Source of the DNA: Leucothrix pacifica
GTDB lineage: Bacteria; Pseudomonadota; Gammaproteobacteria; Thiotrichales; Thiotrichaceae
Assembly (NCBI RefSeq): GCF_003172875.1
Contig: NZ_QGKM01000019.1
Location: 1 to 64,000, forward strand
Direction of reading: 5' to 3'
DNA: 64,000 nucleotides
Within the stretch, counting starts at the first letter, position 1, and each line of letters opens with the position of its first letter. Positions 28,791-36,006 of this stretch are shown piece by piece. The translations under genes were made by a program, and so were the position numbers. The notes beneath the pieces were generated by a model. The model did no database searches. It saw only the letters and a program-made list of their open reading frames with translations, and was not told where the DNA came from.

Positions 28791-28940
28791 CAAAAAAATG
28801 CGCCCTATGTCGGGGTAAACAAAGGGCGCTCGGGGTTGATGTTGTCGATGATCTTATTTTTATTATTAGTAGATCGATCCTCTCGGGGGCTTGCTGGTAA
28901 ATTTTATTGTTATGTTGTTATTTTTATTCTGTTGTTGTTG
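28791..28940 (-). ncRNA. Sigma54-dependent regulatory RNA, copy 1 (candidate)
   Basis: A predicted transcript of about 150 nt, running from about 28940 down to the T-run at 28792-28798. It contains no ATG or GTG, and a TTG only inside the terminator stem-loop. The 5' third is an A-rich single-stranded tract of AAC/AAU/AAA triplets, the kind bound by the Hfq distal face. A central stem (UCGAUCU with AGA..UCGA) displays a second AAU-rich tract in its loop. The terminator is GCGCCCU/AGGGCGC followed by AUUUUUUUG. CCCCGA occurs three times. A 65-nt block (28842-28906) matches copy 2 with only two substitutions. Confidence 0.75.
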
Positions 28941-28951
28941 AAAAGTAATAG

Positions 28952-28966
28952 GCAGATGACGTGCCA
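28952..28966 (-). promoter_or_regulatory. Sigma54 -24/-12 promoter of small RNA copy 1
   Basis: The minus strand reads TGGCACGTCATCTGC. GG and GC are separated exactly as in the sigma54 consensus TGGCACG-N4-TTGC, with one mismatch in the -12 element. Transcription would start near 28940, just before the A-rich tract. Confidence 0.8.
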
Positions 28967-29052
28967 ACTTTTCGGTTTAACCCTAAGTTATTGAATATGT
29001 TGTGAATTATGGTTTTTTTGGAGGTGCTGATGGGGAGGGTATATTGACAATA

Positions 29053-29097
29053 TGTCAGCAAGTGACGTAACGATTTGCTGCTATGTCATATATCAAC
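29053..29097 (-). promoter_or_regulatory. Candidate upstream activator region, copy 1
   Basis: A 45-bp segment whose ends (TGTCAGC and TGTCAnnTATCAAC) are conserved in the equivalent 45-bp segment of copy 2, at practically the same distance from the -24/-12 element (87 and 118 bp here). A palindrome TGACA-ATA-TGTCA spans 29045-29057. A bacterial enhancer-binding protein site is the expected companion of a sigma54 promoter. Confidence 0.5.
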
Positions 29098-29208
29098 CAA
29101 CTCTTGTCGGTTAATAATCAAGGCAAACTAACAACCACTAGCTAATGCAGGTGGTTGTTGAGTTATTTGAGCGATGAGGTAAGAACACCTCATGAAGCTA
29201 GTGATGCA

Positions 29209-30291
29209 TTAAGACTGAAATTCTACGGTTACATCGATGTAACTATAGTTTTGTCGGCCATAGGTATCTTCAATCACGTACCACACTCTATCCACTTGGC
29301 CTACTGGGCCACCGCTATACAAAATAGTGGGCCTATTCGGGTGGTTAGGAAGAATTTTTAGTCTGGCGCCTTTTTCAGAATAAGCGCTAGGAAGTTTGAT
29401 TATCAAGTCTTTGCCTATGTCATTCTTTAATACATCGAGCGTGTTTTCGAAATTGAATGGACTGATGGTAGCCACGGTTTCATCGGGTGACGCAGCAGGC
29501 CAAGGTCCCTTAGAAGAGCTACTAGCAACATTCAGCGTCACTTTAGTCCAACTTACAGTGTCATTGACGACTTCATCATTCCCATCTCGGGAGTCTTGTA
29601 CTGCATAGGTAAAGCTATCGGTTCCCACGAATCCGGCAGGAGGTGTGTATTTCAGTTGGTATTTAAAGGTATTTTCCACAAGAAACTGGCCATTTTGTAA
29701 GCCACCAATTTGCAAATAGTCCTCAGGGTAAACCTCTACCTTCTCTATTTTTCCGCCGTTTGCAGAAGAAAAATTATAGTCAACAATCTTGCCACGAAAT
29801 GTCTCCGAGATACGGGGAGTCATGTTGGTAAACAAGTCATGTGCCAGTGGGTTTATTCTGGTTGGTGTATCTTTCGGGATATCAATAAAATCTTGTAGGG
29901 AAGTCGGTAGAGGTAAGCTCGCAGGCTTTACTTCGACAGCAACCCTTGCTGCATTCTTCCGGCCTTGATCGTCCTCGATCACATACCAAAAGCCATCACT
30001 GCCAACAAAGTCAGCTGCAGGGTTATATGAAATATTGCCATATGCATAACTGCGGTTGTTAACAGCTGTTTCCCTCAGAGAAACTCGGGCTCCATTTTCT
30101 GACCATTCGTTAACAGAAACTATTTTTAAGTTGCTTCCAATATCGTTCTTAAGCAAATCAAGACGAGTTATACCGTAGCTTTGGTGCGTAACAAACTCAT
30201 CCACCACAGCGATAGGCCAATCTGCCATTGCGGGTGTAACCAAGATAATAGATGCCAAAGAAAGGAGAGTTTTCGGTACTGGTTTTACCAT
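29209..30291 (-). CDS. Secreted protein with cadherin/Ig-like repeats
   Basis: A 360-residue exported protein. The signal peptide MVKPVPKTLLSLASIILVTPAMA is probably cut before DWP. Three beta-sandwich repeats follow, recognisable by LDLLKNDIGSNL / NPLAHDLF / LDVLKNDIGKDL near their starts and by YTPPAGFVGTDSFTYAV-type ends (YNPAADFVGSDGFWYVI in the first). These are the Ig-like/cadherin-like domains found in large adhesins, here as a short free-standing protein without an anchor. Two small hairpins after the stop (29130-29159 and 29173-29193) may end transcription. It sits between the two DUF2161/small-RNA units. Confidence 0.75.
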   Translation of the reverse strand: MVKPVPKTLLSLASIILVTPAMADWPIAVVDEFVTHQSYGITRLDLLKNDIGSNLKIVSVNEWSENGARVSLRETAVNNRSYAYGNISYNPAADFVGSDGFWYVIEDDQGRKNAARVAVEVKPASLPLPTSLQDFIDIPKDTPTRINPLAHDLFTNMTPRISETFRGKIVDYNFSSANGGKIEKVEVYPEDYLQIGGLQNGQFLVENTFKYQLKYTPPAGFVGTDSFTYAVQDSRDGNDEVVNDTVSWTKVTLNVASSSSKGPWPAASPDETVATISPFNFENTLDVLKNDIGKDLIIKLPSAYSEKGARLKILPNHPNRPTILYSGGPVGQVDRVWYVIEDTYGRQNYSYIDVTVEFQS

Positions 30292-30485
30292 GATAATACA
30301 TCCTTGTAGTTGAATTTAGGCCAGCCCCGTTTCTTATGATATTGATGTAGTAGGGGGCGAGAGCCAACTCCATCCTAGTCTCTTGTCGGCAAACAGAAAC
30401 CTCGAGCAAGACCGTTGGTCTATAAATCCATGACCAGAGGTAGTGAATGATTATCCGGAATTCAATCTACAACGTTCTGATTCTA

Positions 30486-31178
30486 TTATTGATCTGGGCT
30501 AACGTCTGTCGTGGTGTGTCGCTGCACTAACCAATTGGGAATTTCTTCTTTGCCTCTGGGTGAGAGTTCGTAAACGCCTCGTGATACTTTTTCAAACCAG
30601 CCGTATACATTACGGTATAAAATATCCCGGGCTTTTGGCTCAGTCAGTGCTGCTGCAATCACCATGGGTTTGCTGGCTCCGTGCTGCATAAGATAATCTC
30701 CAATATTCAATACCTTTTGCCGATACGCTGTCATTAAGCCTTTGCGCATGGCTTGCCCACCTGTATTAGGGTCACCGACGCGCGCAGAAAATTCACCTAG
30801 TAAACGCTGCTGTTTGCGCTTCACCACACGAGGTTTGTATTCCTGCGGGTCTAACAGCGTGTCGACGCTACCTACTTTTGGATCGATAACGATCAGTCCC
30901 AATCCCAGCATTTTCAGGAGTTTCATAACGTGCTTGCGGCGAGTGCGGAGAATCGTGGTGTCCAGAGGAATACCGATATAAACCGTTGGGGTAAGTGACA
31001 GTCGCTCGACCACCTGTAGCAATATGCTGAGATTAAATGAAAGCTTCAGTTCAACGACTACAGGCAATTCATCGCTGCGCACGGCAACCACGTCACAGTG
31101 TTGGACTTCGCCTTTAACCGTATAACCCTGGCCTTCCAGATACTGCTTTAATGGCAGGTATAGGTCAGATTCCTTCAT
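30486..31178 (-). CDS. DUF2161 PD-(D/E)xK-type protein, copy 1
   Basis: A 230-residue protein from ATG 31176-31178, the start that matches the paralogue (MKESDLYLPLK). Asp in HCDVVAVRSDE and E-x-K in VVVELKLSF form the nuclease-like core. RLLGEFSARVGDPNTGG and the C-terminal winged-helix-like RDILYRNVYGWFEKVSRGVY are typical of DUF2161 proteins, a putative phosphodiesterase family of unknown role. It is very similar to the copy at 31746-32438; sRNA copy 2 lies 54 bp upstream of its TTG-extended frame. Confidence 0.8.
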   Translation of the reverse strand: MKESDLYLPLKQYLEGQGYTVKGEVQHCDVVAVRSDELPVVVELKLSFNLSILLQVVERLSLTPTVYIGIPLDTTILRTRRKHVMKLLKMLGLGLIVIDPKVGSVDTLLDPQEYKPRVVKRKQQRLLGEFSARVGDPNTGGQAMRKGLMTAYRQKVLNIGDYLMQHGASKPMVIAAALTEPKARDILYRNVYGWFEKVSRGVYELSPRGKEEIPNWLVQRHTTTDVSPDQ

Positions 31179-31264
31179 TCCATTTATTCCACACGTCAAT
31201 TATTCAGTCAGAAGGTCTTCTGCCGATAGTATGAGGGGATGATAGGGATTTATGTTTGACCAGG

Positions 31265-31411
31265 CAAAAAAATGCGCCCTTAGTCGGGGGAAACTAAGAG
31301 CGCTCGGGGTTGAGATTGTCGATGATCTTATTTTTATTATTGGTAGATCGATCTTCTCGGGGGCTTGCTGGTAAATTTTATTATTATGTTGTTATTTTTG
31401 TTTTGTTGTTG
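31265..31411 (-). ncRNA. Sigma54-dependent regulatory RNA, copy 2 (candidate)
   Basis: A paralogue of copy 1, about 147 nt, from about 31411 down to the T-run at 31266-31272, with no ATG, GTG or TTG before its terminator. It has the same order of parts: A-rich AAC/AAA/AAU tract, conserved 65-nt block (31316-31380), three C4GA motifs and a terminator. The terminator stem GCGCUCUUAG/CUAAGGGCGC differs from copy 1 but stays paired: C-G becomes U-G, and the stem is three pairs longer. This argues that the RNA structure is selected. Confidence 0.75.
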
Positions 31412-31422
31412 ATTAGTAGGTT

Positions 31423-31437
31423 GCAGATGCCGTGCCA
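31423..31437 (-). promoter_or_regulatory. Sigma54 -24/-12 promoter of small RNA copy 2
   Basis: The minus strand reads TGGCACGGCATCTGC followed by A. It has the same spacing as copy 1 and differs from it at one position. Predicted start near 31411. Confidence 0.8.
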
Positions 31438-31524
31438 ACTTTTCTTAAAATAATGTAAGTTATTAATTAATATGATTATTCATGTTTTTTAGTGATGGTG
31501 TTGTGTTAGCACATAATGGCTAAG

Positions 31525-31569
31525 TGTCAGCTAACGACGCGTTTATCTGTCACAGTGTCACTTATCAAC
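31525..31569 (-). promoter_or_regulatory. Candidate upstream activator region, copy 2
   Basis: The 45-bp equivalent of 29053-29097, at 88 and 119 bp from the promoter. TGTCAGC and TGTCACTTATCAAC are conserved with copy 1 while much between has diverged. GTTAGC and GCTAAC (31505-31534) form a further dyad, and AGTGACGTAA at 31580-31589 also occurs at 29061-29070. Confidence 0.5.
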
Positions 31570-31745
31570 GTGTCAAAACAGTGACGTAAATAAGAAAAGT
31601 GGTAACAAGAGGGAATAAAGTAGAGAGCACGAAGCAAGGCGGGAGCGGTGTGGGCGGAAGTTGACCAGAATTTACTAGCAGCGATTGTTGTCGGTGCAGG
31701 AAGAGAATGATGGAGAATGATGGTTTGGGGTTTAATGCGATCTTA

Positions 31746-32438
31746 TCAGGTGGTGCCATCAAGCTTAGCAGGTTTGTGTCGCTGTTCCAGCCAGACAGGG
31801 ATCTCCTCTTTGCCTCTGGGAGAGACGTCGTAAACACCCCGGGACACACTTTCAAACCAGCCATAAACGTTGCGGTACAAAATATCACGTGATTTTGGCT
31901 CTGCAATCGCTGCAGCGATTACTTTGGGTTGGCTGGCACCATGTTGTAATAAGTAGTCACCGATATTTAATGCTTTCTGCCGGTAGGCGGTCATGAGACC
32001 CTTTTTCATGGCTTGGCCACCGGTGTTCGGGTCACCGACGCGTGCGCTGAACTCACCCAGTAATCGCTGTTGCTTGCGCTTCACTACACGGGGTTTGTAT
32101 TCCTGCGGATCTAATAATGTATTTACACTGCCCGCTTTTGGGTCGATTACTATCAAACCGAGCCCCAACATTTTGACCAGCTTCAAGACGTGTTTGCGGC
32201 GAGTACGCAAAATAGTAGTGTCCAGCGGAATGCCGATATAAACAGTAGGAGTCAGGGATAAGCGCTCGACGACTTGTAGCAATATGCTGAGATTAAAAGA
32301 CAGTTTAAGTTCGACAACAACAGGGGATTCATCGGCGCGAACAGCGACTACATCGCAGTGGTGGACTTCACCTTTTACCTCATAGCCTTGGCCTTCGAGG
32401 TAGTGTTTTAGAGGGAGGTATAGGTCGGATTCTTTCAT
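31746..32438 (-). CDS. DUF2161 PD-(D/E)xK-type protein, copy 2
   Basis: A 230-residue paralogue of the 30486-31178 product, with nearly the same core (HCDVVAVRADESPVVVELKLSF) and the same DPNTGGQAM and YRNVYGWFE segments. Two ATGs lie three codons apart; I use the one matching copy 1. Differences are scattered and mostly conservative, so both copies appear functional. The unit of DUF2161 gene followed by small RNA gene is present twice on this strand, separated by the Ig-like protein gene. Confidence 0.8.
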   Translation of the reverse strand: MKESDLYLPLKHYLEGQGYEVKGEVHHCDVVAVRADESPVVVELKLSFNLSILLQVVERLSLTPTVYIGIPLDTTILRTRRKHVLKLVKMLGLGLIVIDPKAGSVNTLLDPQEYKPRVVKRKQQRLLGEFSARVGDPNTGGQAMKKGLMTAYRQKALNIGDYLLQHGASQPKVIAAAIAEPKSRDILYRNVYGWFESVSRGVYDVSPRGKEEIPVWLEQRHKPAKLDGTT

Positions 32439-32447
32439 TTTAATCAT

Positions 32448-32800
32448 TATAGATTTAATTTAAGTATTTAAGTTGTAGTGGCTTAAAAATTTCTCTTATG
32501 GCGAAATTGATGAAATAAAATGCCTCATCAATAGTAGTAGGGAGAATGTAAGGACTATGATGCGCGTGCCATTTTATCTAAGCCTGATAAGACAGGCGCT
32601 CCGGTTAATCCGGCGCGGAACTCATCGTGGAGCGGGAATGCAAAGGCGTCCCAACAAGGACTCCGAATACATTAGCGCAGACCCACTCCCGTCATCGAAA
32701 AATGTTCTTGCAACAACGGGACGAACCATACGTTTTGTATATATAATAGTGGTTTAATATCACTAGCCAGCTTAAAAATTCTCTGCTATTTTAAATAATA
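32448..32800. other. Intergenic stretch before the thi leader
   Basis: I find no gene I can support here. A 66-codon open frame (32557-32757) is Arg-rich, lacks a recognisable motif and is more GC-rich at its start than its surroundings; it could be a remnant. A TATAAT at 32742-32747 is a plausible -10 element for the thiC transcript, but no good -35 lies at the right distance. Confidence 0.3.
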
Positions 32801-32887
32801 CTTGTCGGGGTGCCCTCACGTTTTCGTGAAGGGCTGAGATTCATACCCGTTGCACCTGATACGGTTCGTACCGTCGTAGGAAACAAG
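32801..32887 (+). promoter_or_regulatory. TPP (THI-box) riboswitch
   Basis: The P1 arms CTTGT (32801-32805) and ACAAG (32883-32887) close a THI box containing CGGGGTGCC, GGGCTGAGA, ACCCGTTGCACCTGAT and GTCGTAGGAAAC, all hallmark conserved stretches of the TPP aptamer. It lies about 110 nt upstream of thiC and will shut the operon down when thiamine pyrophosphate is plentiful. Confidence 0.95.
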
Positions 32888-32951
32888 GCAGACGACTGCC
32901 ATGCCACCATCACACTGGAATAAATTTCTGGTGCGTCGCGCATGTTTTTCG

Positions 32952-36006
<3,055 letters not shown>

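Follow-up and report, generated by a model that had tools for sequence, protein, structure and literature searches.

The window analysed here is a 64,000-nt stretch of the Leucothrix pacifica genome (contig NZ_QGKM01000019.1, positions 1 to 64,000), and within it two predicted small RNA (sRNA) units lie on the minus strand, copy 1 at 28792-28966 and copy 2 at 31266-31437. The units had been noticed in a first-pass annotation of the sequence, and their presence at those places was confirmed. Each consists of a sigma54 promoter with the spacing GG-N10-GC, followed by an A-rich leader, a block shared by the copies, and a terminator hairpin with a 7-T run. Enhancer-type sites and a site resembling those of IHF (integration host factor) lie further upstream. 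The features are as follows.

28952-28966, minus strand: copy 1 sigma54 promoter, TGGCACGTCATCTGC, GG-N10-GC
28984-28996, minus strand: copy 1 IHF-like site, ATTCAATAACTTA, matching the consensus at all but one position
29045-29088, minus strand: copy 1 upstream enhancer region, three TGACA/TGTCA sites
28902-28940, minus strand: copy 1 A-rich leader, CAACAACAACAGAATAAAAATAACAACATAACAATAAAA, AAN repeats
28800-28901, minus strand: copy 1 module, UUUACCAGCAAGCCCC single strand, A-loop hairpin and terminator hairpin, with covariation (98.2 bits with the R1 model, copy 1 itself being in the model alignment)
28792-28829, minus strand: copy 1 intrinsic terminator, stem 28800-28829, T7 28792-28798
31423-31437, minus strand: copy 2 sigma54 promoter, TGGCACGGCATCTGC, GG-N10-GC
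31456-31468, minus strand: copy 2 IHF-like site, AATTAATAACTTA, one mismatch
31525-31575, minus strand: copy 2 upstream enhancer region, four TGACA sites in minus-strand reading
31376-31412 (approximate limits), minus strand: copy 2 A-rich leader, AAN repeats
31274-31375, minus strand: copy 2 module (108.3 bits with the R1 model, copy 2 itself being in the model alignment)
31266-31303, minus strand: copy 2 intrinsic terminator, stem 31274-31303, T7 31266-31272

The exact sigma54 spacing first claimed for both promoters was found in each. The two copies match at an E-value of 1.5e-64, which is beyond chance, and on folding they give z-scores of −2.9 and −5.2 for copies 1 and 2, respectively. 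The longest common block with two differences runs from AATAAAATTTACC to GACAA and occupies 28842-28908 in copy 1; it measures 67 nt rather than the 65 nt originally given. The terminator stems were said to vary while remaining paired, and this was observed: GCGCCCT..AGGGCGC in copy 1 is replaced by GCGCTCTTAG..CTAAGGGCGC in copy 2, with pairing kept and a G+C stem followed by the 7-T run in both. Neither RNA contains an ATG or a GTG, as had been noted, and a small open reading frame (ORF) was rejected on this ground. TTG had been located solely in the terminator loop of copy 1; it was found just beyond the T-run in both copies and, in copy 1, a second time in the terminator hairpin.

The structured part of each RNA was resolved as a module in which the near-invariant single strand UUUACCAGCAAGCCCC is followed by a hairpin with an A-rich loop and then by a second, covarying hairpin. 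The inner stem of the first hairpin also covaries, and its loop reads AAUAAUAAAAAUAA or similar. The UUUACCAGCAAGCCCC segment, a 16-nt single strand, is the most conserved part of the module; in 41 of 46 folds of single modules, the nine bases at its centre stay unpaired. Changes on both sides were found in 15 of 20 pairs (0 of 3 in the outermost helix), 95.3% of the alignment cells pair, and the covariation score is 0.492 versus 0.219 for shuffled alignments and at most 0.131 for slid controls. Some transcripts would carry two or three modules after one promoter; in 8 of the 12 tandem groups the longest T-run stands in the last module, the misfits being L038, L042, L054 and L064. The loci of Thiothrix and related bacteria have longer stretches full of AAN repeats.

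The pair reported first proved to be part of a larger set. Six core-bearing loci are present in this genome (two on contig C58 and one each on C144, C70, C125 and C57), each with its own sigma54-type promoter, and the four outside the window match the window copies at E = 6e-61, 3e-42, 3e-16 and 1e-4. Of 57 genomes searched with BLAST, 13 have the RNA, counting this one. A covariance model was built from 33 modules, which remained for the A1 alignment from 55 distinct module sequences when 9 had been left out as not being modules or as lacking the A-loop hairpin, together with 13 of Thiothrix type or related. With this model the RNA was found in 47 of 63 genomes and in all 8 genera of the family Thiotrichaceae, and the conservation outside this genome that the first-pass annotation had called for was thus observed. 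In a class-wide sample it was found in 3 of 369 genomes, namely this one and two others, all of the same family; both searches used stricter filters under which weak matches are lost. The exact core pattern occurs in 34 stretches of the named genome collection, 29 of them titled Leucothrix, Cocleimonas, Thiothrix or Thiotrichaceae. Two further matches, titled merely as proteobacterial or gammaproteobacterial metagenome-assembled genomes (MAGs), both have modules, and a match in Geobacter (L060) has no module around the pattern. The modules on two contigs labelled Aquificaceae MAG 28 (L032, L052) resemble those of Cocleimonas, and the binning of these contigs may be wrong. Two genomes of the genus have A-rich stretches (L030, L018) that look like the RNA but match it in the leader alone, with no core.

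Taken on its sequence features, the RNA is a multicopy structured small-RNA family of the Thiotrichaceae, the filamentous sulfur bacteria and their relatives. A scan of 4227 Rfam families over the window gave no match to it and no hit to an unrelated element at either RNA, the sole hit being a thiamine pyrophosphate (TPP) riboswitch; permissive scans of the window and of eight relatives' loci gave sub-threshold matches only. Among the matches listed from the open-licence literature, as far as their excerpts go, no description of the family was found in work on sigma54/Crc sRNAs, on sRNAs or pili of Thiothrix and Leucothrix, or on PilR with sRNAs, and no sRNA work on filamentous sulfur bacteria was found.

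The control region is conserved in the same way. The GG-N10-GC spacing is present in 40 of 40 de-duplicated promoters, and along these the order is enhancer sites, IHF-like site and sigma54 promoter; no promoter was found for the cores at five loci, four of them cut by a sequence end (L024, L033, L050, L055) and one with a TGGCC variant (L028). TGACA/TGTCA sites were counted in the 220 nt before 39 of the 40 sRNA promoters (L038 does not have 220 nt upstream), with a mean of 3.92 and a range of 2-7. The same count gave a mean of 0.59 (range 0-2) for 27 other sigma54-like sites of this genome and 0.54 for 731 background windows. These enhancer sites are placed mainly at 80-140 nt upstream (114 of 157) and have recurrent spacings, TGTCA-N5-TGACA occurring 14 times and TGACA-N15-TGACA nine times. 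The first-pass annotation had placed the RNAs under an enhancer-binding protein (EBP) without reporting any enhancer sites, and their presence is in keeping with that proposal. At 33 of 41 promoters there is an IHF-like site that departs from the consensus at one position at most, versus 10.7 expected; the expectation was taken from first-order random sequences, not exact shuffles. One further predicted sigma54-type transcript (L096, contig C125, near 87640, minus strand) has four TGACA/TGTCA sites and nine AAnAAnAA motifs and no CAGCAAGCCCC core; it lies directly ahead of an ftsE-like gene, and hfq is some 5 kb away on the same contig.

The multiple copies, their differing gene neighbourhoods and their occasional tandem arrangement could be expected of a mobile or repeat element with a hairpin and no regulatory role. 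This was strongly disfavoured, and is very improbable, given the compensatory changes described above and the conservation of promoter, IHF-like site and enhancers at similar distances. In addition, the core pattern was unmatched in viral contigs, and copy 1 was unmatched in plasmids and phages.

The enhancer sites were found to be common to the RNAs and to pilin genes, which are present in this genome and in 13 of 18 relatives. All 14 of the pilin genes scored with a strict sigma54 promoter (13 genomes, 6 genera) have three to five TGACA/TGTCA sites, and 8 of these 14 promoters show one or more of the three most frequent spacing classes. In ten other pilin genes, which lack a strict sigma54 promoter, zero to two sites occur in 400 nt. 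Two loci were left unscored: L166 offers 169 nt upstream, with no promoter or site seen there, and at L171 no pilin start was found. Seven sigma54 activators were read by eye in this genome, namely a PilR-like protein, NtrC, an AtoC-like protein, two DctD-like proteins, RtcR and NtrX. An NCBIfam scan covered three of them; NtrC scored above its curated cut-off, and the PilR-like and AtoC-like proteins above none among the 25 families listed for each. In two genera a PilR-like gene lies upstream of a pilin gene on the same strand, at about 0.2 kb (G009) and about 0.4 kb (G028), and the G009 protein is 62.7% identical, over the aligned part, to the PilR-like EBP of this genome. According to the excerpts consulted, PilR is established as acting with sigma54 on pilA in Pseudomonas, and Geobacter pilR stands just before a sigma54-dependent pilA (PMC6058289, PMC2725144). 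Since the sRNA promoters have their enhancer sites in common with sigma54-type pilin promoters, PilR, rather than CbrB or NtrC, appears to be the likeliest activator of the RNA family.

The A-rich tracts had been described as AAN repeats of the Hfq/Crc type, and this was borne out. AAnAAnAA, which repeated is a trait of CrcZ, was observed 230 times versus 28.2 expected from dinucleotide shuffles in 38 predicted transcripts (41 less L017 and L026, where promoter and core were mispaired, and L022, which is too short). Every one of the 38 has at least two, and 34 exceed their shuffles at 0.05. Hfq was found in 9 of 10 genomes searched, and the hfq gene of this genome is typical in sequence; binding of the RNAs by Hfq is predicted. 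The same motif lies within 70 nt of the start in 13 of 14 pilin leaders versus 39 of 274 long ORFs, these being long open frames at the studied loci and not verified genes (Fisher p 6.7e-10, a value that is overstated because the sequences are related). A role as a CsrA sponge was rejected, the RNAs being G-poor, with GGA once in copy 1 and nowhere in copy 2.

It had been suggested at first that the RNAs are a carbon- or nitrogen-status decoy which, like CrcZ/CrcY under CbrB or NtrC, would lift repression by Hfq/Crc. The working parts described for CrcZ in the excerpts consulted, namely a sigma54 promoter, repeated AAN tracts and several copies (PMC4063720, PMC8871633), are all present, and NtrC is encoded in this genome. 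Against this, the enhancer sites match those that precede sigma54-type pilin genes, none of the seven EBPs reads by eye as CbrB, and cbrAB does not adjoin either window copy. The one Crc-like protein compared, of four PF03372 hits in this genome, aligns at 345 bits to a solved exonuclease versus 247 bits to Crc and retains the catalytic residues, with QETK, GDWN and SDH where Crc has QDTR, GSLY and SQH, so that it appears to resemble an active exonuclease. The CrcZ model RF01675 found no match in the window and one weak match in the eight relatives' loci, at 17.9 bits versus a cut-off of 95, which is an A-rich run in a Thiothrix locus; on this genome it gave no match, and 14 controls were equally empty. 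CbrAB-CrcZ is also described as restricted to Pseudomonadaceae in the excerpt cited (PMC8871633). This proposal is held to be improbable.

The near-invariant 16-nt single strand may also permit a base-pairing role, one absent from the first-pass annotation. The RNAs could mainly be trans-acting, Hfq-dependent base-pairing sRNAs (class II-like), with UUUACCAGCAAGCCCC as the seed and the AAN tracts loading the RNA onto Hfq. The conservation and unpaired state of UUUACCAGCAAGCCCC argue for such a role, as does the retention of the core in modules without an A-rich loop, and tandem modules would multiply the seeds. The search for targets argued the other way: when one mismatch is allowed, the genome has 13 occurrences of the 13-nt complement GGGGCTTGCTGGT, five of these being the RNAs themselves, and the remaining eight versus five for a backwards control represent no clear excess. 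Most of the eight fall within predicted ORFs, at places that have no shared relation to a start, and the L096 transcript has the same enhancers and AAN tracts with no core. A mainly base-pairing function is possible, at odds clearly below even. The pilin leader was not proposed as a target of the core, no GGGGC being seen by eye in the leaders inspected.

The reading preferred here, to which we give a probability of roughly 0.6, is a PilR/sigma54-activated, pilA-co-regulated and dose-tunable family of Hfq-binding RNAs in Thiotrichaceae, acting as decoys, by base pairing, or both. A PilR-type EBP would activate the sigma54 promoters with IHF-type bending of the DNA, and the RNAs would rise together with the pilin gene pilA. 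They would then draw Hfq off A-rich ribosome-binding sites, the pilA leader being the first candidate. Hfq titration alone would be insufficient, because some modules without an A-rich loop keep the core, and this near-invariant element suggests a further RNA or protein partner; the UUUACCAGCAAGCCCC segment would very probably pair with, or be bound by, that partner. The presence of AAnAAnAA in 13 of 14 pilin leaders makes a coherent feed-forward loop possible, in which PilR would transcribe both pilA, whose leader has an Hfq-type AAN motif close to the ribosome-binding site, and the modular decoy RNAs, and the latter would titrate Hfq and free pilA translation while the core addressed further targets. 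This loop is put forward tentatively and is the less likely outcome.

Several observations weigh against the PilR- and Hfq-based reading. The pilin promoter of this genome has none of the commonest spacings, and its leader is the sole exception among the 14 in having no strict AAnAAnAA. An A-rich leader can be simply the open ribosome-binding site of a highly expressed gene. The assignment to PilR was made from the shared sites and the by-eye reading of the EBPs; published PilR sites, in the excerpts consulted, are NifA-like TGT-N11-AGA and GTCT elements, somewhat unlike the sites here. Some tandem-array modules keep the core with a short hairpin in place of the A-loop hairpin. One genome with the RNA (G010, genus g5) gave no Hfq match, 16 of the 63 family genomes gave no RNA match under the stricter filters, and the copies and genera are related, so that counts are not independent.

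The first-pass interpretation was thus partly supported overall. New here are the GG-N10-GC spacing at all 40 promoters, the IHF-like sites, the enhancer sites in common with pilin genes and the AAnAAnAA excess, and a defined RNA family without an Rfam match is now available for the filamentous sulfur bacteria. If the preferred reading is true, pili control and Hfq control are tied together, and a PilR-Hfq coupling becomes directly testable. To our knowledge, the RNAs that titrate Hfq are mostly the Crc RNAs of Pseudomonadaceae, controlled by CbrB. An independent family in Thiotrichaceae, structured, modular and linked to the pilus gene through its enhancers, would point to more than one origin of sigma54-controlled Hfq decoys and to a capacity of such decoys to serve surface behaviour. 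Should the feed-forward loop hold, an Hfq decoy would be wired to surface pili, not to carbon catabolism, and would have evolved separately from CrcZ.

Copy 1 is flanked by an AAA_14/DUF4143 gene on one side and a bacterial Ig-domain gene on the other. The interval from copy 1 to the Ig-domain gene holds a strong hairpin (29123-29167, AACUAACAACCAC...GUGGUUGUUGAGUU), perhaps a two-way terminator, which gave a sub-threshold psRNA14 match of 27.1 bits versus 60. Copy 2 sits between two DUF2161 paralogues (30486-31199 and 31746-32447), a pair of putative PD-(D/E)XK phosphodiesterases. The TPP riboswitch (32796-32899, 70 bits) lies directly ahead of a thiC-like gene at 32979.

Compared with known systems, the family is closest in its working parts to CrcZ/CrcY/CrcX of Pseudomonadaceae. 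According to the excerpts consulted, those RNAs likewise have a sigma54 promoter served by an EBP, several copies in some species, and repeated A-rich tracts fit for the distal face of Hfq (PMC4063720, PMC8871633), CrcZ itself being 407 nt long with six A-rich stretches that bind the Hfq distal face and titrate Hfq (PMC4063720). Unlike CrcZ, the RNAs here are modular and about 150 nt long (longer with more modules), with a conserved core, covarying hairpins and pilin-type enhancers, and no Rfam match, CbrB or catalytically dead Crc was seen. The best reading is that they are CrcZ-like in their working parts, yet would not be members of CrcZ. Qrr1-5 of Vibrio are also multicopy sigma54-dependent sRNAs with a conserved single-stranded stretch, but their enhancer motif is that of LuxO sites, whereas A-rich tracts are the main feature of the present family. 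GlmY/GlmZ of enterobacteria are paralogous sigma54-dependent sRNAs whose GlrR half-site, TGTC/GACA, looks similar to the sites here, while spacing and anatomy differ. GlrR was not read by eye among the seven EBPs, and the three scanned fall below its NCBIfam cut-off. The Rfam models of GlmY/GlmZ and Qrr, among the 4227 families, found no match in the window. In the PilSR-pilA regulon, no case of a non-coding RNA was found among the matches listed from the open-licence literature, as far as their excerpts go. The family resembles this regulon in its sigma54 promoters and in upstream sites like those of pilin genes, and differs from it as known in that non-coding RNAs here appear to be members.

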